A DNA stretch of 64,000 nt from Curvibacter microcysteis (GTDB taxonomy: Bacteria > Pseudomonadota > Gammaproteobacteria > Burkholderiales > Burkholderiaceae_C): positions 124,001 through 188,000 of the forward strand of contig NZ_JAQSIO010000007.1 of assembly GCF_028649455.1 (NCBI RefSeq), written 5' to 3'. A model generated the notes under the pieces. That model worked only from the letters and a program-made list of their open reading frames with translations. It made no database searches and was not told where the DNA came from. This document shows, in pieces, positions 51,007 to 63,465 of this stretch. A program made the position numbers and the translations under genes. The first letter of the stretch is position 1, and the number at the start of each line of letters is the position of its first letter.

Positions 51007-52011
51007 ATGCTCGATGACCGTGCCAAGTTGTTGCTGAAAGCGCTGGTGGAGCGCTATATCGCAGACGGCCAGCCTGTCGGGTCGCGCACGCTCTCGCGGG
51101 CCTCGGGGCTGGAGCTGTCGGCTGCCACCATCCGCAACGTGATGTCGGACCTGGAGGAGTTGGGCCTGATCGCCAGCCCCCACACTTCGGCTGGCCGCAT
51201 CCCCACGGCGCGCGGCTACCGCCTGTTTGTGGACACCATGCTGACCGTGCAGCGCGAACAGCTGCTGACCCCCCAACTGGCCCCCGAGCAACCCCAAAAA
51301 GTCATCGCCAACGCGGCCAATCTGTTGTCCAACCTGTCGCAGTTTGTGGGTGTGGTGATGGCGCCACGGCGCACATCCGTGTTCCGCCACATCGAGTTCT
51401 TGCGCCTGTCGGACCGGCGCTTGCTGGTGATCATCGTGTCGCCCGACGGCGACGTGCAAAACCGCGTCATCTTCACCGAGTCTGACTACACCCAGGCCCA
51501 GTTGCTGGAGGTGGCCAACCAGCTCAATGCCAACTACGCTGGCCTGGCCATCGAGCAAGTGCGCGAGCGGCTCAAAGGCGAGGTTGAAAGCCTGCGTGGC
51601 GAAATCGCCGCCCTGATGCAGGCTGCGGTCAATGTCAGCTCCGAGGCGCACGACCAGTCGCAAGACGAGGTGGTGATCTCGGGCGAGCGCAATTTGCTGT
51701 CGGTCAGCGACTTTTCGGGCGATCTGAGCCACCTGCGGCGCGCCTTTGACCTGTTTGAGCAAAAGACCCAATTGATGCGATTGCTGGACATCTCCAGCCA
51801 GGCCGAAGGCGTGCGAATCTTCATTGGCGGCGAAAGCCAGGTGGTGCCGTTTGAAGAGCTGTCGGTCGTCAGCTCGCCCTATGAGGTCAACGGGCAGGTC
51901 GTTGGCACCCTGGGCGTGATCGGACCTACACGCATGCCGTATGACCGGATGATCCAGATCGTGGACATCACCGCGAAATTGGTCAGCAACGCGCTGAGCC
52001 ACCATAAGTAG
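51007..52011 (+). CDS. hrcA: Heat-inducible transcription repressor HrcA
   Basis: Repressor of class I heat-shock genes, 334 residues. The winged helix at the N-terminus has [40 protein letters not shown] and [18 protein letters not shown]; the C-terminal half holds the GAF-like dimer domain ([40 protein letters not shown]). Targets such as groESL are outside the window. It is the last backbone gene before the tRNA-Ile locus. TTACAAT just past its stop (52,016-52,022) could be the -10 box for the tRNA. Confidence 0.96.
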
Positions 52012-52091: not shown

Positions 52092-52132
52092 GGGGCGTTA
52101 GCTCAGTTGGTTAGAGCAGAGGACTCATAATC
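52092..52132 (+). pseudogene. Truncated 5' half of a tRNA-Ile(CAU) gene
   Basis: 41 bases matching the first 41 positions of the spliced downstream tRNA, from the acceptor strand through D-arm, anticodon CAT and AATC, with one difference (G for C at acceptor position 4). The match continues past the intron site as the intronless sequence (CTCATAATC), then changes to unrelated DNA. The 3' anticodon strand, T arm and acceptor strand are missing, so it cannot make a tRNA. Best read as a left attachment-site remnant of an integrated element. Confidence 0.85.
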
Positions 52133-52353
52133 AAGAGGCCCGAGCGATTAACCGCCACTTTTTTCGGACTGGTTGCTTGATTCCAACGCTTTGAAATCAA
52201 GCACTTACAGCGGTCTGGCGATTCCGCCGGATTGCTACCGAGGAAGTTGGCGGGTGGGCGCTTGCTACGTTCTTGCTACTGAGGGAGAAATGGCGTTTTT
52301 CGGCGGCCTTTGGGGTCGCTGAAAGCGCGGAGAGTTGAAGTTGTTTTATGAAT
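52133..52353. other. Element-end remnant with attachment-site-like repeats
   Basis: 221 bp between the tRNA fragment and the complete tRNA gene. It contains a hairpin (GCTTGATT at 52175-52182 with AATCAAGC at 52195-52202) and three direct repeats TTGCTAC at 52232, 52262 and 52273, the last two 11 bp apart. Such short direct repeats beside a tRNA half look like arm-type integrase sites at the end of a tyrosine-recombinase element. I find no coding sequence in it. The reading as an element end is inference. Confidence 0.5.
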
Positions 52354-52694
52354 GGGCCGTTAGCTCAGTTGGTTAGAGCAGAGGACTCATCGAAATGGTG
52401 ACCTTGCCGTGAAAGCGGCAATGGAAAAACCGGGTGAACTCAGGGAAACCGTCAGCCAGTCAATGGCCCGGCAATCCTGAGCCAAGCTCGCTGAAGGCAG
52501 GTCGAAGGACCGGTAGGCGAGAAGGTGCAGAGACTAGGGTGTGAGGAGCCAATCCGATAAGCATCCCAAGAGCGCCCGGCACCCTAACGCGCGGAGCAAT
52601 TCGCGGCGAGGGTGGTGAGATAGTCCAGGGAATGGGGAAACTCATGCAAACCTGAATCCTTTGGTCGTTGGTTCAAGTCCAACACGGCCTACCA
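52354..52694 (+). tRNA. tRNA-Ile (anticodon CAT) interrupted by a group I intron
   Basis: Exon 1 (37 nt, 52354-52390) and exon 2 (40 nt, 52655-52694) join to a 77-nt tRNA with encoded CCA. Acceptor GGGCCGT pairs with ACGGCCT (G-U at the end), anticodon stem GAGGA pairs with TCCTT, loop CTCATAA, T arm GTTGG-TTCAAGT-CCAAC. The body resembles E. coli tRNA-Ile2 (ACUCAUAAUC, then UUGGUCG before the T arm) rather than elongator tRNA-Met, so C34 should be modified to lysidine by TilS to read AUA. The intron sits after the third anticodon base. Confidence 0.9.
52391..52654 (+). ncRNA. Self-splicing group I intron (IC3-like) in the tRNA anticodon loop
   Basis: 264-nt ribozyme without an ORF. P1: exon CTCAT pairs with internal guide GTGA (52398-52401), with the expected U-G at the 5' splice site and a C-G extension. 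P2: TTGCCGT/GCGGCAA with GAAA tetraloop (52404-52421). The core has GAGCCAAGC, P6-like CTCGC/GCGAG, and P7 GACTA (52532-52536) with TAGTC (52621-52625). P9: ATGGG/CTCAT with GAAA loop (52632-52645). It ends with a terminal G. This matches what I recall of the Azoarcus tRNA-Ile(CAU) intron in layout and in motifs such as AGAGACTAG and ATAGTCCAGGGA. Confidence 0.93.
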
Positions 52695-52714: not shown

Positions 52715-53941
52715 ATGTCCAGCAAGGCCCCCAACACCTCAAGTCTCAGCGACTTCCTTCGCTTTGATGCAGGGCGGCCGGAATTGCGGGCCCTGTTCGT
52801 TCCGGGTGCCAATTGGCGGAAGAAGCGCCAGTACCCCGAGTTGAAGCCCTTAGACAGCTTCACGCGAGATGACTATTTCCGTTTGGCTTGGGAGCTGCTT
52901 CGACGAATGCCGCGATACCGCAGGCAGTACCGGAAGCTCGAAGACCTTGGCATCAAGACGGCGACATTTTTCAAGCCAAGTTCAAGTTCTTTTTATTCCA
53001 GCGACAACCCGCCCGGTTTTCCCGGTTGGGCCAATGTGCCGTTGCGTGGGCACAAGTGCGAGCCTCCGATGGCGTTTCAAGACGACACCTTCGGCACGTA
53101 CATAGAGGCACAGACGGCAGCAGGCCAGCCCTGGTTCGTGATGAATCGGCGCAAATGGGTGATGGACTTTTGGGGGCTGCACTATTTGCCAGACCCCACG
53201 ACTCCTTTTGATGGATTGCCCAAACGCGAGCTGTTCAATGCCCCTGCCGCATCCGTCACCGTTGTATCGAATGCTGCACCGGCAGACCGCCCGCGGGTGG
53301 TGAACACCTACCTGCGCCAAAACGAAATACTGATTCGCTTCCGGTTGGATGCATCGCTTGACCAGCAAATCGCATCGGTTCGGCAGGAGGTCGAGCGAGC
53401 TCAAGAGATCGCCGTGGAGCGTGCCCAGAGTGTGCTCGACCCGCTGCCTCTACCAGGGCGGCGCAAGGCAGGCAAGAACGCACTGAGCGATGAGGATGCA
53501 GCGTTTCAGCACAGTCCGCGTGTACGAGCCAAGGCAGGGCGTGTGTTGCTTAAGCAGCTGGAGCTGAGCCCATTTTGGTTGCGAACGTGGGACGCAATCG
53601 CCGAGGCCAGAATGCAACAAGGTATCGCTGTGCCCCGTCTGGATCGCAAAGGAATCATCGACCAGTTTGACGATGTGTGTGCTGATCTACCGACCGAATC
53701 GGACGTGCCGAAGGGCTCTGTGTCTTCTGACTTTTCGGCCGAGGTTGATATGCCGGACGACGAAGCTATCGAGGTAACCACGCGTCCCAAGAGGGAGCAA
53801 GGTTTGAAGCAAGTTGTAGGCGACGCACTCACTCCCGCCATGGTCCCGAATTGGGGCATGCGCAGCGAAAAGTACATAGAAAAAAGCGACGAGGCCTTTC
53901 GGCAACTCGTCGCGTTGGCTTTCACGCTGAAGGCGGACTGA
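52715..53941 (+). CDS. Uncharacterised accessory protein next to the tRNA
   Basis: A 408-residue protein I do not recognise with confidence. The start is MSSKAPNTSSLSDFLRFDAG, 20 bp after the tRNA. The stretch DDYFRLAWELLRRMPRYRRQ resembles the short N-terminal motif of DUF6499-type proteins found on integrative elements and plasmids (AWEFLRRNPxYR). FVMNRRKWVMDFWGLHYLPD follows, then a helical middle (VRQEVERAQEIAVERAQSVL). No tyrosine-recombinase Arg-His-Arg-Tyr pattern, Walker motif or signal peptide is visible. It ends 12 bp from the convergent rep gene. Codon use is less GC-biased than in the backbone. Confidence 0.65.
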   Translation: MSSKAPNTSSLSDFLRFDAGRPELRALFVPGANWRKKRQYPELKPLDSFTRDDYFRLAWELLRRMPRYRRQYRKLEDLGIKTATFFKPSSSSFYSSDNPPGFPGWANVPLRGHKCEPPMAFQDDTFGTYIEAQTAAGQPWFVMNRRKWVMDFWGLHYLPDPTTPFDGLPKRELFNAPAASVTVVSNAAPADRPRVVNTYLRQNEILIRFRLDASLDQQIASVRQEVERAQEIAVERAQSVLDPLPLPGRRKAGKNALSDEDAAFQHSPRVRAKAGRVLLKQLELSPFWLRTWDAIAEARMQQGIAVPRLDRKGIIDQFDDVCADLPTESDVPKGSVSSDFSAEVDMPDDEAIEVTTRPKREQGLKQVVGDALTPAMVPNWGMRSEKYIEKSDEAFRQLVALAFTLKAD

Positions 53942-53953
53942 TCGAGCACTTCG

Positions 53954-54997
53954 TCAGGCCAGAGCGCATTCGGCGTCGTCCTCCCCGTTCCAGAGTCCGG
54001 GCGGCGGCGTCACCGCATTGGTCAAGGTGAAGACGTCACCCAACTGCACCAAATCGCCGTTGCTTTCGGGTGGGGGCGTCGTGATGTCGAAGCCCAACTC
54101 TTCAGCGAAGTACGCCACCTGCCGCTTGTACGCTTTGGGTTCCAGCAGCAGCGTCAAGTCGTCCCCGTTTTCCCAGCAGCGGTAAGTCGTTCGGTACATG
54201 TGCTTGACGTCCCGCAGGTCCAATCCGCTCAGCCCAGCGCGTACCGAACCACGGAGGTTCAGGCGATTGAAGGCGCTTTCCAACTCGGCCTTCAGCGTCT
54301 GAAATGTGCAGTCCCGTGGCTTCGTCATGTCCATGGCCTTCAGCTTAGGGTAGCGCAGCACCACTTCAGAACGGATGACGGTCTTGGCGAAGTTCAAGAT
54401 GGCCTCGCGATTCGGCAGGTCGGCGGGCAGGCTCTTGGTGTCGATCAGTTGCTTGGCCTTGTCGTAAAACTTCTGCGACGAACCTTGCGAGTGCTGATTG
54501 CGATACACCGTTTCACCATATCCGTAGGTCGAGGTGTCGATGCCCTTGTCAATCAGCTCATGCGCCAGTTCGACCAGCAGGCGAGTGGGCGTGACACCCT
54601 CCGGCACTTCAAGATTCACCCCCACATCGAGCCGTTTCAGTGTCAAGTGCTCCTCGTTTTCGATTTGGCGCTTTTCTTCTGCCGAAAAGGCCACCCGGCG
54701 TTTGCGGTGCGCGGCCTTGAACGCATCACGGACCAGTGCGGGCACATTGCATGATCCGAACACGTTGTGCCCTTGGTTGTATCCAATCACACTGCCCTCA
54801 ATGACCAAGATGGCCTTTGACGGCAAGTGCAGCACGTTCAATTCCTTGCCATGGAACGGACCCGGCACAGACACGCGCTTTGCGCGTGGTGGCATAGACG
54901 AAGAGTTGACCTCTTCGGCACCATCCTGTCCGCCGGAAACATATTGGTCAAACTGTGTGGTGATGGTGTCCGCAAATACCTTGTTTTCATTCAACAT
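53954..54997 (-). CDS. Phage/plasmid replication protein, II/X family (filamentous-phage type Rep)
   Basis: A 347-residue replication initiator-like protein. The central part resembles gene II/X (Phage_CRI and Gp2-type) replication proteins of filamentous phages and related plasmids: LKRLDVGVNLEVPEG, then TYGYGETVYRNQHSQGSSQK and FYDKAKQL, then RSEVVLRYPKLKAMDM. Such proteins nick the double-stranded replicative form to begin rolling-circle replication. No phage coat or Zot genes are seen in the window, so this is a plasmid- or phage-derived module inside the island. It follows a small HTH gene and an AT-rich region in the same direction. Confidence 0.78.
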   Translation of the reverse strand: MLNENKVFADTITTQFDQYVSGGQDGAEEVNSSSMPPRAKRVSVPGPFHGKELNVLHLPSKAILVIEGSVIGYNQGHNVFGSCNVPALVRDAFKAAHRKRRVAFSAEEKRQIENEEHLTLKRLDVGVNLEVPEGVTPTRLLVELAHELIDKGIDTSTYGYGETVYRNQHSQGSSQKFYDKAKQLIDTKSLPADLPNREAILNFAKTVIRSEVVLRYPKLKAMDMTKPRDCTFQTLKAELESAFNRLNLRGSVRAGLSGLDLRDVKHMYRTTYRCWENGDDLTLLLEPKAYKRQVAYFAEELGFDITTPPPESNGDLVQLGDVFTLTNAVTPPPGLWNGEDDAECALA

Positions 54998-55171: not shown

Positions 55172-55396
55172 TCATGCGCGACCTCCTTTTGGAGTGGCTT
55201 GGTAAACCACCTTGGCCTCGATGAAGGCCTCCAGGTCTTTGCGCCGATAGCGCACCGTGCGCCCGTACTTCACGTAAGGCAGTTCATACCTCTTGGTACA
55301 CCGCCAAACCGCCAGCGTCTTGGCATTCTTCAGTCCCAAAATGACTGCGGCCTCGGCCTCGCTCAATAGCGCGTTACTGGTCTCAGGTTGTTTCAT
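55172..55396 (-). CDS. Helix-turn-helix (excisionase/AlpA-like) protein
   Basis: A 74-residue MerR-like winged helix protein (HTH_17 type). LLSEAEAAVILGLKNAKTLA is the helix-turn-helix, followed by VKYGRTVRYRRKDLEAFIEA, the wing motif typical of excisionase and AlpA-like regulators. The start MKQPETSNALL has GGAG eight bases upstream; the open frame extends further but without similarity. It precedes rep by about 175 bp in the same direction and may control rep transcription or act in excision. Confidence 0.82.
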   Translation of the reverse strand: MKQPETSNALLSEAEAAVILGLKNAKTLAVWRCTKRYELPYVKYGRTVRYRRKDLEAFIEAKVVYQATPKGGRA

Positions 55397-55758
55397 CCTT
55401 CGCTCCGTTGTTGCAATGGGTTCACTGTAGATTTCCAGTAATTCAAAACGCGCTCTTTGTGGGGTGGTAAATCGCACGCTTAAAGCCAGCTAGTTCTGGT
55501 GGTAAAAGCTGCTGACCTGAGCGTCTTACGTCTCCAGAACATGTGTCTGGCGAAGTCACACGCCGCTTGCCAGACCTGATCGCAGGCGGCTAAAACGGTA
55601 AAGCGCGAGCCGAAACGGCCACCGATCAGACTGACCGCTGCGCTCGTATCTCACTGCGGCACCGCCGCGAAACCCCCAACGCACACATGACAGCCCGTGC
55701 CTCTGGCAGCACTGGCACGCCGCTGCATGACCGTGCCAACCCTTGAAAGGAACGAGAG
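55397..55758. other. Intergenic region between divergent HTH and peptidase genes
   Basis: About 360 bp without a credible gene, shared by the leftward HTH gene and the rightward peptidase gene. GGTGGTAAA occurs twice (55463-55471 and 55498-55506), 35 bp apart, which could be a regulator half-site or iteron-like pair. No tRNA, terminator or clear -35/-10 pair is seen. Confidence 0.4.
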
Positions 55759-56493: not shown

Positions 56494-57309
56494 ATGGTGC
56501 TGGAACAGTTGCTGCTCCAGCCGCTGCGCCGAATAGAGCTGATCCAGCCGTGGCGTGCGGCTGGCAATCGGCCCGGCGTGGTGGGCGACAGCTTGCTGGC
56601 GGGCGCCATGGCGCTCCACTTCGAGCACTCTGCGCTGGTCTTCAGGTCGCCGCTGCGGTTCTCTGCTTGTCAGACAGGCACTGTGATCGGCTTCCGGTCG
56701 AACGGTGCTGTCCAAACGCTGGGCTACCGCTTTGATGTTGTGCCTGCGGAGGATGTTGGCGGGCTCTTTAGTGCCTGCGAGCCTCGGCTATCACTGAGGC
56801 CCGACCAGTGGCCAGGGCTATGTCATGTTGGCAAGGCGCAGTCGGTGTTTTTGTTGGCGGACCTTGGGCAGCATGGCGCCTCGAACTGCCTCAGGCTTCG
56901 GTTGCTAGACCGAGGTTGGTGCAGCGTCATGTACCGCCGCGACCTGGACGGCGCCATCGAACTGTCGCCCCAAGATGAACGCGCCGAAGTGCCTAGCATC
57001 TCAGTCCGCTCCCCGGAAGATGAGTTTGGCTGGCTACATCCGGCCAGTGCGCACCCGTTTGTTCTGGAGGGGCAGTACTGGCGGACGGCGCACCCGCGAG
57101 ATTGGCCGTGGCCTTTGGCGCCGGAGTGGCGAAGTCAACCGCTCAGCAGTGAGTACCGGCGTGTCATGAAAGCTGCGCTGCGGGCACGGTTTGAGCAGCA
57201 CGGCAATCTGCGTAGGCGGTTCCTGGCCTTGGGCATTTCCGTCGTGGTGACTGGCGTGGCAGACGGTTTGATCGAAGAACTTGCCGCTGAACTTCGGGAG
57301 ATTTACTGA
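56494..57309 (+). CDS. Uncharacterised accessory protein
   Basis: A 271-residue protein not recognised. It starts MVLEQLLLQPLRRIELIQPW four bases after the peptidase gene, so the two are probably cotranscribed. The sequence is rich in Trp, Arg and Leu, with FGWLHPASAHPFVLEGQYWR and WPWPLAPEWRS near the middle and an amphipathic C-terminal end (RRRFLALGISVVVTGVADGL). No motif, signal peptide or clear membrane helix except perhaps that last segment. The C-terminal codons overlap the convergent XRE gene by 7 bp. Confidence 0.6.
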   Translation: MVLEQLLLQPLRRIELIQPWRAAGNRPGVVGDSLLAGAMALHFEHSALVFRSPLRFSACQTGTVIGFRSNGAVQTLGYRFDVVPAEDVGGLFSACEPRLSLRPDQWPGLCHVGKAQSVFLLADLGQHGASNCLRLRLLDRGWCSVMYRRDLDGAIELSPQDERAEVPSISVRSPEDEFGWLHPASAHPFVLEGQYWRTAHPRDWPWPLAPEWRSQPLSSEYRRVMKAALRARFEQHGNLRRRFLALGISVVVTGVADGLIEELAAELREIY

Positions 57310-57677
57310 CTGGTCTTGCCCGGTGAGTGCTTCAGCGGGGCCTCGGGCGGTAAGCCAGGAACATCCGCCAACAGCTTCTTGACGGACTTCTGCATAGCGG
57401 CAGAAGCTCGGCCATACCGATAGATCAGGTCGGCCAGCTCATCGGTGTCCGCATAGAAGTACGCCACGGGTATGCCCAGCACATCGGCGATGCGGCTCAC
57501 CGTGAGCAGATCAGGCCGATGAACACCAGTTTCATATCGGTTGATCCTGGCATTGGCTGCCGATTCATCCAACCCAATATCGACCCCTAACTTTCGCTGC
57601 GAAAGTGCGCTCGCGAGCCTGGCACGCCTGAGTCGCGCTCCCCATTGCTCATCTAAGTCGGACGTATCTCGCTTCAT
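57303..57677 (-). CDS. XRE-family transcriptional regulator
   Basis: A 124-residue Cro/CI-type repressor. The HTH (RLRRARLASALSQRKLGVDI, ESAANARINRYETGVHRPDL, LTVSRIADVLGIPVAYFYAD) occupies residues 13-75; the C-terminal tail is helical (SAAMQKSVKKLLADVPGLP). It is divergent from the exported protein gene and its start codon lies within a cluster of CGAGATACGT-like repeats, so autoregulation and control of the neighbouring genes are likely. Confidence 0.88.
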   Translation of the reverse strand: MKRDTSDLDEQWGARLRRARLASALSQRKLGVDIGLDESAANARINRYETGVHRPDLLTVSRIADVLGIPVAYFYADTDELADLIYRYGRASAAMQKSVKKLLADVPGLPPEAPLKHSPGKTSQ

Positions 57678-59994: not shown

Positions 59995-62900
59995 ATGTCA
60001 AACCAGTTCTTTGAGAAACCGATTCTCAACTCGCCGTACGGGTATCCCGGTCGCCATTGGGAGCTTGACGGCACTGGGCAACCGACCCAGCAGATTGTCG
60101 AAACTCGCCGCCGCGCCGAGTTCATCACCCCGATCCCCAAGGCCAAGAAGCAAAAGGGCATCGCTAAGCAAGATGCCCTGTTGTTTGATGATGAGCTGTC
60201 TACGCAGAAGCAGGCCTACGACCACACTGCCGTCATCAACTCGGTGCGGCAAGAGGTGGACAAATGGCGTGCACTCAAGAATCCAGCCGACTGGCGCGTC
60301 ACGCCCGAAACCGCGCGTCTGCTGCAACACTGGCGGCATCATCCGTTCAACAGCATCCGCCCGTTCTTTTGCCAAGTAGAGGCTGCCGAAACAATCATCT
60401 GGCTTACCGAAGTTGCCCCTCAAGTCGGCAAGATCGGCCAGGCCTTCCTTGACCATCTGGCCAATGCCAATAATGACGCCAACCCGGAACTGATGCGGTT
60501 GGCCTTGAAGCTGGCGACCGGTGCGGGCAAGACCACGGTGATGGCCATGATCATCGCGTGGCAGACCGTCAACGCTGTGCGCCGACCTGGCAGCAAGAAG
60601 TTCACGCGAGGCTTCCTCGTTGTTGCGCCCGGCTTGACCATCAAGGACCGTCTTCGCGTCTTGCAGCCCAACGATCCAGAGAGCTACTACGCCAGCCGGG
60701 AGCTGGTGCCCAGCGACATGCTGGATGACCTGAACCGGGCAAAGATCGTTATCACCAACTACCACGCGTTCAAACTGCGAGAGCGCATTGAGCTGTCGAA
60801 AGGCGGGCGCCTCTTGCTGCAAGGCCGGGGCGGCGATGAACTGAACACCCTCGAAACCGAAGGCCAGATGCTCCAGCGCGTCATGCCCGACCTGATGGGC
60901 ATGACCAACGTGCTGGTCATCAATGACGAGGCCCACCACTGCTACCGCGAAAAGCCGGACGCAGAACTGGACGCGCTGAAGGGTGACGAGAAGAAAGAAG
61001 CCGACGAGAACAACGAAGCCGCCCGCATGTGGATCACCGGCTTGGAGGCAGTCAACCGCAAGTTGGGCGTCGCCAAGGTGGTTGACCTGTCGGCTACACC
61101 GTTCTTCCTCGCAGGGTCAGGTTACGTTGAAGGCACCTTGTTCCCTTGGACCATGAGCGACTTTTCGCTGATGGACGCCATCGAGTGCGGCATCGTCAAG
61201 CTGCCCCGTGTGCCCGTGGCTGACAACATCCCCGGCGGCGAGATGCCAAAGTTCCGTAACCTGTGGGAGCACATCCGCACCCGCATGCCAAAGAAGGGGC
61301 GGGGTGCTGCGAAGTCACTTGACCCCTTGAGCCTGCCGGTTGAGCTGCAAACGGCGCTTGAAGCCCTGTATGGTCATTACAAGAAGACCTTCGACTTGTG
61401 GCAAACCGCTGGCATCAAGGTGCCGCCTTGTTTCATCGTGGTGTGCAACAACACATCCACGTCCAAGCTGGTTTACGACTTCATCTCCGGCTTCAACCGC
61501 GAGAATGAAGATGGCAGTTCCACCCCAGTCCCTGGGCGGCTGGAACTGTTCCGCAACACCGACGAGTACGGCAACCCCTTCGGCCGCCCCCGCACGCTGC
61601 TGATCGACAGCGAGCAACTGGAGTCCGGCGACGCGCTGGACGACAGCTTCCGTGCCGCCGCCGGCCCAGAGATTGAGCAGTTCAAGCAAGAAGTCTTCGA
61701 GCGTGGCGGCGCCTTGGCCGACGAACTTCGCTCAGGTAAAGACTTCGACGACGCACGCCTGCTACGCGAAGTGATGAACACCGTGGGCAAGGCTGGCCGA
61801 TTGGGCGACTCGATCCGTTGCGTAGTCTCCGTGTCCATGTTGACCGAGGGCTGGGACGCCAACACCGTCACCCACGTGCTGGGCGTTCGTGCCTTTGGCA
61901 CCCAGTTGCTGTGCGAGCAGGTGATCGGCCGCGCCCTGCGCCGCCAGTCATACGACCTGAACGAGGAGGGCCTGTTCAACGTTGAATACGCCGACGTGCT
62001 GGGCATCCCGTTTGACTTCACAGCCAAGCCGGTGATCTCCAAACCCCAGCCGCCGCGTGAGACGGTGCAGGTGCGTGCACAGCCAGACCGTGCCGCGTTG
62101 GAGATTCAGTTCCCCCGCGTGCAGGGCTATCGGGTCGAGTTGCCCGATGAACGACTGACAGCGGAGTTCACGGCTGATTCCGTGTTGGTACTGACGCCTG
62201 ACTTGGTGGGGCCGTCCATCACGCAGAACGCCGGCATCATTGGCGAAACCGTTGACCTCAGCCTTGACCACTTGGCTGACATGCGGCACTCCACCCTGCT
62301 GATGCACCTTACCAAGCGGCTGCTGATCAACCATTGGCGCGATCCGGGTGACGAACCCAAACTGCACTTGTTTGGTCAGCTCAAGCGCATCACCAAGGAA
62401 TGGCTTGACACCTGCCTGGATTGCAAGGGCGACACCTACCCGGCACAGCTGATGTACCAGGAGCTGGCCGACGAGGCGTGCAACCGCATCACTGCCGCCA
62501 TCACCAAGGCCGAGCAAGGCAACAAGCGCCCTATCAAAGCGGTGCTTGACCCGTATAACGCCACCGGCACTACCCGTTTTGTCAACTTCAACACCTCGAA
62601 GACTGAACGTTGGGAAACCAACGGCCCGCCACCCAAGTGCCATGTGAACTGGGTGATTCTTGACAGCGATTGGGAGGCTGAGTTCTGCCGTGTAGCCGAA
62701 CGCCACCCGCGTGTGGTGGCCTACGTCAAGAACCACAACCTGGGCCTTGAGGTGCCGTACCGCTACGCATCGGAGACGCGCAAGTACAGGCCGGACTTCA
62801 TCGTGCAGATCGACGACGGCCATGGCCCTGACGACCTGCTAAACCTCATCGTTGAGATTAAGGGCTACCGGGGCGAAGACGCCAAGGACAAGAAGCTGAC

Positions 62901-63465
62901 CATGGACACCTACTGGGTGCCCGGCGTCAACAACCTCGGCGCTTACGGCCGCTGGGCCTTTGTCGAGTTCGTGGACGTGTACCAAATGCAGCATGACTTC
63001 GAGAAGAAGGTTGCAGCTGAGTTCGAGGCAATGATTCAGCAGGTGACTGGGCTGCGAACCCCAGATGTCACGAGCCACATCGAAGCTTCCGAAGACGCGC
63101 TGCGCGAAGAAACCGCAGCGATTCCATGGGTCCGGCCCGTCTTGGATTCTCTCTGGCGCAACGCCGCCACGAGGGAAGGTGCTGAGCTGAGATTGGGGGA
63201 TATTGAAAAGGTGGCTGCGCAGAACCACGTCGATCCTGCGGACGTGGTCGCAATACTCGCGGCGCTCCGAGGCGAGGGCAAGGGCCGCTTCCAGATGACG
63301 TTGGTAGACGGCGAATTAGCGGCCCCCATCACCTTGCGTGACGCCATGCAGAAGCGGAAGCACGCAGAACGCGGCGCCGATGGCACTTCTTCCAATTGGG
63401 ATGCATGGGCTTCTCAAGTTCGAGTGAGCTGGCTTGGCCAAGGCCTCAAAGAGGGCAAAAAATGA
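59995..63465 (+). CDS. Type III restriction-type helicase-nuclease (BPTD_3080 family-like)
   Basis: A 1156-residue DEAD/DEAH-type SF2 protein. Walker A is LATGAGKTTVMAMI near 173, the Q-motif region precedes it, motif II is VINDEAHHCYRE near 308 and motif III is LSATPFFLAG near 364. Motif V/VI is GWDANTVTHVLGVRAFGTQL with QVIGRALRRQSYD near 640-655. A C-terminal PD-(D/E)xK-like nuclease (YRPDFIVQIDD, then LIVEIKGYRG near 955) completes it. Type III restriction subunits have the same plan, and this length and ends fit the BPTD_3080 group. No methyltransferase gene is upstream. Stop overlaps the next gene. Confidence 0.85.
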   Translation: MSNQFFEKPILNSPYGYPGRHWELDGTGQPTQQIVETRRRAEFITPIPKAKKQKGIAKQDALLFDDELSTQKQAYDHTAVINSVRQEVDKWRALKNPADWRVTPETARLLQHWRHHPFNSIRPFFCQVEAAETIIWLTEVAPQVGKIGQAFLDHLANANNDANPELMRLALKLATGAGKTTVMAMIIAWQTVNAVRRPGSKKFTRGFLVVAPGLTIKDRLRVLQPNDPESYYASRELVPSDMLDDLNRAKIVITNYHAFKLRERIELSKGGRLLLQGRGGDELNTLETEGQMLQRVMPDLMGMTNVLVINDEAHHCYREKPDAELDALKGDEKKEADENNEAARMWITGLEAVNRKLGVAKVVDLSATPFFLAGSGYVEGTLFPWTMSDFSLMDAIECGIVKLPRVPVADNIPGGEMPKFRNLWEHIRTRMPKKGRGAAKSLDPLSLPVELQTALEALYGHYKKTFDLWQTAGIKVPPCFIVVCNNTSTSKLVYDFISGFNRENEDGSSTPVPGRLELFRNTDEYGNPFGRPRTLLIDSEQLESGDALDDSFRAAAGPEIEQFKQEVFERGGALADELRSGKDFDDARLLREVMNTVGKAGRLGDSIRCVVSVSMLTEGWDANTVTHVLGVRAFGTQLLCEQVIGRALRRQSYDLNEEGLFNVEYADVLGIPFDFTAKPVISKPQPPRETVQVRAQPDRAALEIQFPRVQGYRVELPDERLTAEFTADSVLVLTPDLVGPSITQNAGIIGETVDLSLDHLADMRHSTLLMHLTKRLLINHWRDPGDEPKLHLFGQLKRITKEWLDTCLDCKGDTYPAQLMYQELADEACNRITAAITKAEQGNKRPIKAVLDPYNATGTTRFVNFNTSKTERWETNGPPPKCHVNWVILDSDWEAEFCRVAERHPRVVAYVKNHNLGLEVPYRYASETRKYRPDFIVQIDDGHGPDDLLNLIVEIKGYRGEDAKDKKLTMDTYWVPGVNNLGAYGRWAFVEFVDVYQMQHDFEKKVAAEFEAMIQQVTGLRTPDVTSHIEASEDALREETAAIPWVRPVLDSLWRNAATREGAELRLGDIEKVAAQNHVDPADVVAILAALRGEGKGRFQMTLVDGELAAPITLRDAMQKRKHAERGADGTSSNWDAWASQVRVSWLGQGLKEGKK

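Follow-up and report, generated by a model that had tools for sequence, protein, structure and literature searches.

An intron-bearing tRNA-Ile(CAU) gene downstream of hrcA

The DNA that we analysed (the window) is a stretch of 64,000 nucleotides from Curvibacter microcysteis. It contains hrcA, a gene that adjoins tRNA-Ile in many relatives, and further downstream an intron-bearing tRNA gene with the following parts:

51007..52011, + strand: hrcA, conserved chromosomal neighbour of the native tRNA-Ile(CAU) (NCBIfam TIGR00331, 303.8 bits)
52354..52390, + strand: 5' exon of the tRNA-Ile(CAU) read below as a replacement (direct sequence, DNA match)
52391..52654, + strand: group I intron of 264 nt, between U36 and A37 (CTCAT^AA) (RF00028, alignment)
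52532..52536, + strand: P7 5' strand GACTA (alignment, direct sequence)
52621..52625, + strand: P7 3' strand TAGTC (alignment, direct sequence)
52655..52694, + strand: 3' exon of the same tRNA, CCA encoded (direct sequence, DNA match)

The preliminary description had placed a group I intron in the anticodon loop of a tRNA-Ile(CAU) at 52354-52694. A search with the Rfam model Intron_gpI (RF00028) gave a match above the cut-off with agreeing coordinates (66.8 bits against a gathering score of 50, E 9.2e-15, whole model, 52379-52647, + strand). Joining of 52354-52390 to 52655-52694 by removal of the 264-nt insert yielded, as had been described, a full tRNA of 77 nt with the anticodon CAU and a cloverleaf fold. 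The other features that had been reported, namely a U.G splice pair in P1, a GAAA-capped P2 and P9, and the P7 strands GACTA/TAGTC, were all present in the window copy, and the terminal base of the insert is G. The longest stop-free stretch in the intron is 64 codons; there is therefore no homing endonuclease gene. ARAGORN with default settings did not call the intron-bearing tRNA-Ile(CAU) gene, and a consensus search for a sigma-70-like promoter of this tRNA found none. The intron may belong to subgroup IC3, and its insertion site may be identical to that of the Azoarcus intron.

We aligned 28 introns with short exon flanks to look at covariation. The named nine-helix structure was paired in 91.2% of the cells of these 28 relatives, compared with 32-44% when the partners were slid by 1-3 columns, and both-sided changes were found at 25 of the 47 pairs. 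Pairing by helix amounted to 100% for P7 (one of the 28 rows through a double change), 99.5% for P4, 99.3% for P9, and 80.6% for P3. P1 and, at three positions, P3 were unpaired in up to 8 of the 28 rows, which form a diverged sub-group; we read these failures as a probable effect of the alignment. The U.G pair at the 5' splice site was found in 20 of the 28 rows, the remaining 8 being again the diverged sub-group.

The native tRNA-Ile(CAU) gene is split by an island

Pieces of a second, intronless tRNA-Ile(CAU) flank the region that contains the intron-bearing gene:

52092..52132, + strand: attL, intronless 41-nt 5' half of the native tRNA-Ile(CAU), with the terminal core CTCATAATC (sequence, DNA match, G268 empty site)
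52124..52132, + strand: 9-bp core CTCATAATC common to attL and attR, in which CTCATAA is the 7-nt anticodon loop (attL/attR comparison across hosts)
52133..52353, no strand: presumed attP arm with three TTGCTAC repeats, at 52232, 52262 and 52273 (repeats conserved across islands)
Contig C7:202337-202381 (start at window-equivalent 78337), outside the window: attR, 3' half of the native tRNA-Ile(CAU) (DNA match)

The 5' half starts 262 bp ahead of the intron-bearing gene and then passes into unrelated sequence. The core-to-core distance between the two native halves is 26.2 kb. An empty site was found in genome G268, which is placed in the same genus as the window genome (HrcA 98.8% identical) and has one intact intronless tRNA-Ile at the same locus. 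This tRNA together with 85 bp downstream corresponds to the window genome's two halves joined; overall, 286 of 352 positions agree, and the differences lie in the outer flanks. We infer that the island recombined within the 7-nt anticodon loop and split the host tRNA gene without restoring it. The intron-bearing tRNA differs from the native one in the acceptor and T stems and therefore arrived with the island. The preliminary description had regarded the intron-bearing tRNA as a chromosomal arrangement. The intron in a tRNA-Ile(CAU) stands, but the gene is cargo of an island of about 26 kb, flanked by the split native halves.

In ten islands of the window's integrase family, attL passes beyond the core into non-tRNA sequence, and no tRNA sequence was seen in either arm next to the core. 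The TTGCTAC repeats occur at spacings of 30 and 11 and are exact in 9 of the 10 islands compared, all of one integrase family; the G271 arm has one exact copy and two variants. Further TTGCTAC/GCTAC copies are present in the integrase-side arm, and the repeats are probably the arm sites of the integrase. In these ten islands, the intron tRNA starts 199-233 bp past the start of the core (about 230 bp in the window island); with the attP-like junction of G189 and the other arms read included, the range is 179-233 bp. A search for the excised attP circle in viral contigs gave 0 matches.

The island genes that lie in the window are:

52715..53941, + strand: 408-aa protein (E426) with Trans_reg_dom PF20109, adjoining the intron tRNA (profile match)
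53954..54997, - strand: replication-type protein with a Phage_CRI/G2P N-terminal domain (PF05144, E 3.3e-14)
55172..55477, - strand: HTH_17 protein (PF12728), putatively excisionase-like
57303..57677, - strand: HTH_3 regulator (PF01381)
59995..63465, + strand: type III restriction-like helicase/nuclease, cargo (PF04851, E 2.3e-9)

The island extends past the window to C7:202337, where the integrase and attR sit. The integrase is a tyrosine integrase of 449 aa with an arm-binding domain, encoded about 200 bp from attR (PF00589 4.6e-21, PF13356 7.9e-14), and it contains motifs that we take to be catalytic. The defence genes of the island comprise a type III methylase, LmuA and LmuB of Lamassu, AbiEi, and AbiEii; PADLOC gave a weak match for REase_III (19.9 bits) and 1653.7 bits for MTase_III in a gene located beyond it (L011:2101-4938). 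The first island is apparently followed in tandem by a second element (C7:202382-210694 and C4:604918-606616; L141, L012), with its own displaced tRNA-Ile 3' half at its end and an integrase-like gene on another contig.

No second intact tRNA-Ile(CAU) gene found in the assembly

The assembly of the window genome has 21 contigs and a completeness of 99.99%. It gave 49 Rfam tRNA matches, which were typed with ARAGORN, and three of these have the anticodon CAU. Because ARAGORN labels every CAU tRNA as Met, these were assigned by eye and by elimination, two being of the initiator type and one an elongator tRNA-Met. No other tRNA-Ile(CAU) was found among the 49 matches. It had been proposed that AUA decoding depends on this ribozyme if there is no second gene, and such a dependence on splicing is supported as far as the 21-contig assembly shows. 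The genome contains tilS, the gene required for lysidine formation. ATA codons numbered 0 in the four host genes that we counted, 3 in the gene for the 408-aa protein, and 1 in the Res gene.

We also searched the 28 intron genomes with the 77-nt native sequence and found no intact tRNA-Ile(CAU) among the matches listed. Competing matches that could have been a second gene were rejected: ARAGORN identified 19 tRNA-Lys and 2 CAU tRNAs in 20 stretches from 17 genomes (one stretch, L171, is cut by a contig end and is a tRNA-Lys by eye), and 13 tRNA-Lys and 2 CAU tRNAs in 9 further stretches from 8 genomes. The four CAU tRNAs, in L173 (G120), L176, L190, and L192, resemble elongator tRNA-Met, by eye only.

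Recurrence in other genomes

Of 299 genomes of the family that we searched at the DNA level, 15, including the window genome, have full-length relatives of the intron-bearing tRNA (79-100% identity), and G029 gave a partial match of 70%. Together with seven diverged cases, these make up 23 intron genomes. Some genomes counted as intronless may carry a diverged intron, for example among the further partial matches, such as those in G260, G184, and G012. The 5' half lies beside the intron tRNA in 6 of the 23 (the window genome, G123, G120, G169, G271, and G189), tRNA-Ile halves occur in other arrangements in 2 (G234 and G029), and 4-5 have remnants or common leader bases. About 10 of the 23 showed no island sign in the bases read; islands are therefore not the only setting of the intron. 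In G029 (L087 9334-13740), an insert of about 4.3 kb separates the tRNA-Ile halves and contains a reverse-oriented intron tRNA; two more 3' halves follow.

Ten genomes combine a related integrase with an intron tRNA in a split tRNA-Ile, the integrases being 65-95% identical to that of the window, which served as the query. Both halves are on one contig in 7 of the 10: the window genome, G123, the single-contig G120, Rhodoferax bucti, MAG-224, REEB378, and Comamonas testosteroni SWCO2. The arrangement is split across contigs in G169 and SM_69_25 and partial in G271, and the integrase is present in pieces only in G169 and G271. In C. testosteroni SWCO2, the intron-bearing island is apparently separated from the 5' half by another element. 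The array of REEB378 spans about 61 kb, with the intron tRNA about 60 kb from the integrase. In MAG-224, the target tRNA-Ile adjoins an rpoD-like gene (named from reading the sequence), not hrcA.

Genome G014 has an integrase with 94% identity and no intron tRNA; its island has lost the left end, and an intact intronless tRNA-Ile is present at the locus. The integrase fragment of G210, from a contig of 8 kb, could not be assigned to a site. No tRNA-Ile half was found near the integrases of G031 and G191, which are 42% identical.

Relatives of the 408-aa protein were sought by a pattern search of named species genomes, which detects only genes with one of two peptide patterns. It gave nine loci, of which eight are true relatives, L126 being dropped as unrelated (24% identity). 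The intron tRNA lies directly beside the gene in 7 of the 8 and in the same array in the eighth. One locus, L118 in REEB378, looked like a counter-example as there is no intron tRNA within 10 kb, and it was rejected as such when its array was found to hold the 5' half, the intron tRNA, and the 3' half.

Genome G189 has two tandem islands behind the 5' half, each with its own intron tRNA (L082 1173-1459 and 17428-17714; one has a compensated P7 change, GACTT/AAGTC). Between these islands is an attP-like junction that contains the core but no tRNA half. A search of G189 at E 1e-20 did not find a relative of the window's integrase; a different recombinase-like gene lies nearby.

Of 399 genomes in an order-wide search, four gave a match to the intron tRNA at E <= 1e-20; two of the four are outside the family and had no 5' half in the roughly 3.3 kb examined. 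The plasmid search gave 2 records with exon-only matches. The conjugative plasmid 1 of Polaromonas sp. JS666 has a tRNA-Ile 3' half near an AlpA gene (L128 2997-3040), as would be expected for an attP or att end of the usual restoring type.

Horizontal movement and decay

We compared introns with hrcA in a close group of nine hosts, made up of seven of the ten integrase-bearing genomes plus G135 and G292. Intron identity was 89-99% (mean 95%), while hrcA DNA was on average 76% identical (69-96%). Over 15 hosts, the two identities were uncorrelated (Spearman -0.06). For C. testosteroni, identity was 99.2% in the intron and 74.4% in hrcA.

Several genomes show stages of loss. In G292, the intron tRNA is accompanied by a piece of the arm and by only the first 15 nt of the 5' half; in G135, the 5' half is gone; and G213 and G283, of the genus of G120, have just the last leader bases in common. 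These comparisons support the view that the intron tRNA persists where the island decays, as expected for the sole copy of a needed gene, and that an island followed by its decay may spread the intron between genera without a homing endonuclease.

A replacement tRNA that may be shielded from integration

There is a strong case that the cargo of the island is a replacement tRNA: a mobile island appears to have split the cell's seemingly only tRNA-Ile(CAU) gene and to keep the cell alive with a spare copy. We think it probable that the complete, foreign, intron-interrupted tRNA-Ile(CAU) that the island carries is, moreover, a replacement shielded from the integrase. The integrase would join the attP core to the anticodon loop, as attL, attR, and the natural empty site indicate, and the native tRNA is split, as seen in the sequence. 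The cargo tRNA would be transcribed and its intron would remove itself, giving the only tRNA-Ile(CAU), which TilS could modify to read AUA. With the intron in the crossover segment, this tRNA would be no substrate for the island's own integrase or for others that use the anticodon loop. The island and the halves would then decay while the intron tRNA stays, and the intron would in this way cross genera without a homing endonuclease.

The intron interrupts the presumed 7-nt crossover segment (CTCAT^AA), for which exchange is suggested by the common core. Because the intron lies inside the segment that is presumably exchanged, the cargo tRNA should not be able to present a normal att site. From this position and from the recurrence of the arrangement we infer that the intron makes the replacement tRNA unusable as an integration site. 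A further step is to see the ribozyme as self-protection of the mobile element, which would make the host dependent on the island copy and block its own as well as competing integrases; we consider the chances of this to be even. Among 212 genomes in which the intron is not known to occur, 34 had second matches to the intronless anticodon region, versus 0 of 15 intron-only genomes (Fisher p 0.14), or 1 of 15 (p 0.48) if a variant half in G159 is counted. These numbers come from inspection by eye of the results for 298 genomes, and such a match may be a second gene as well as a displaced half. The half in G159 is an extra 3' half, 2.5 kb from the intron tRNA, and may reflect an integration event there. 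In thaumarchaea, intron-bearing tRNA genes serve as integration sites (PMC8371274); an intron is therefore no general bar.

The main competing explanation, which we consider unlikely but by far the most serious, is that the tRNA is a rescue copy without a shield, the intron being a neutral passenger in a captured tRNA. Its overlap with the crossover site would be coincidental, because bacterial tRNA introns usually sit in anticodon loops, as described for group I introns (PMC4090602). The half-count test above was not significant, and intron tRNAs exist without any island sign, both of which agree with a passenger. Against it, relatives of the 408-aa protein lie beside an intron tRNA in 7 of 8 cases and in one array with it in the other, and none goes with an intronless cargo tRNA. 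The sole tRNA-Ile island without an intron tRNA, that of G014, lacks its left end, and the tRNA-Ile at the locus is intact; G189 shows the same pairing of island and intron tRNA with a different recombinase.

It is very improbable that the intron gene is dead and that another tRNA-Ile(CAU) is hidden in an assembly gap, or that AUA is read by another tRNA. The assembly is indeed in 21 contigs and AUA is rare, with no ATA in the four host genes. Yet it is nearly complete, no intact copy was among the matches listed for the 28 intron genomes, which include the single-contig G120, double changes keep the intron helices, and the intron tRNA survives beyond the island.

The least probable explanation is that the intron is an ordinary one in a chromosomal tRNA gene, as in Azoarcus, and that an unrelated island inserted close to it. 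This is in keeping with the intron-bearing tRNA-Ile genes without islands in family members, but it was ruled out in its plain form by the two native tRNA halves that flank the island and by the empty site without an intron in G268, and it does not account for a cargo intron that is near-identical between genera where hrcA is not.

Relation to known systems

The replacement reading can be set beside several known systems. In Islander islands, the tRNA gene fragment in attP restores the gene, which leaves one intact tRNA gene and one fragment (PMC4383910). The island described here resembles them in its tyrosine integrase, in the crossover in the anticodon loop, and in being bounded by tRNA sequence; it differs in that neither end is intact, the arms flanking the core are without tRNA sequence, and a whole separate tRNA gene is carried. 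Because the target gene is not regenerated, we regard it as a variant of the Islander-type tRNA islands and not as a member.

The comparison with Azoarcus made in the preliminary description holds at the level of the gene, the intron in the pre-tRNA-Ile of Azoarcus sp. BH72 being named by Hausner et al. 2014 (PMC3984707). Both are group I introns in a betaproteobacterial tRNA-Ile (PMC3984707), but the window intron is carried by an island, in a tRNA that substitutes for a split native one.

Randau and Soll 2008, as described in PMC4090602, proposed that introns protect archaeal tRNA genes from integration. Here too an intron interrupts a tRNA att site; in their proposal, however, it is the host that is protected and the introns are spliced by proteins, whereas here a ribozyme is carried by the invading element. 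Sugahara et al. 2012, as cited in PMC8371274, proposed attP as a vector of tRNA introns in archaea, that is, the spread of tRNA introns by a mobile element, as seems to occur here. In that proposal the intron is in attP and enters by the crossover, whereas in the present island the core and arms are free of introns and a whole tRNA is separate cargo. The attP-like junction in G189 and the arms that we read have an intron-free core. In the open-licence literature, we found no title or abstract on an intron-bearing replacement tRNA on an integrative element and no account of one from bacteria, which is weak evidence of absence.

Other introns in tRNA genes

The window genome contains a second group I intron (C4:60974-61258, - strand; L002), in an apparent tRNA-Leu(UAA), with 47.9 bits against the Rfam cut-off of 50. 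Directly downstream of this gene is a 406-aa ORF that we read as a tyrosine integrase. In Klebsiella phage Muenster (L127 1501-1811), a group I intron of 231 nt (RF00028, 104.1 bits) interrupts an unannotated tRNA-Ile(CAU) at the same position as in the window, and phages KP13-7, phiKp_21, and RCIP0023 gave the same partial match as Muenster. According to Hausner et al. 2014 (PMC3984707), the phage introns known by then were all in protein genes. In the IMG/VR viral contig L148 (5442-5460, - strand), a similar insert of 243 nt divides a tRNA-Ile-like gene; none of the 16 remaining viral-contig pattern matches contained a tRNA.

Significance

The arrangement adds to the ways in which an integrative element can coexist with its tRNA target, here by replacing it and not by restoring or sparing it, and such islands would evade searches that expect a regenerated tRNA. 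It also provides a specific vehicle by which tRNA group I introns without homing endonucleases can spread. If the intron does shield the replacement tRNA, this would be a route by which these introns cross genera and become fixed. Since the native intronless tRNA, the intron-bearing tRNA, and the integrase are all available, these bacteria provide a system in which the blocking of integration by an intron could be tested directly.
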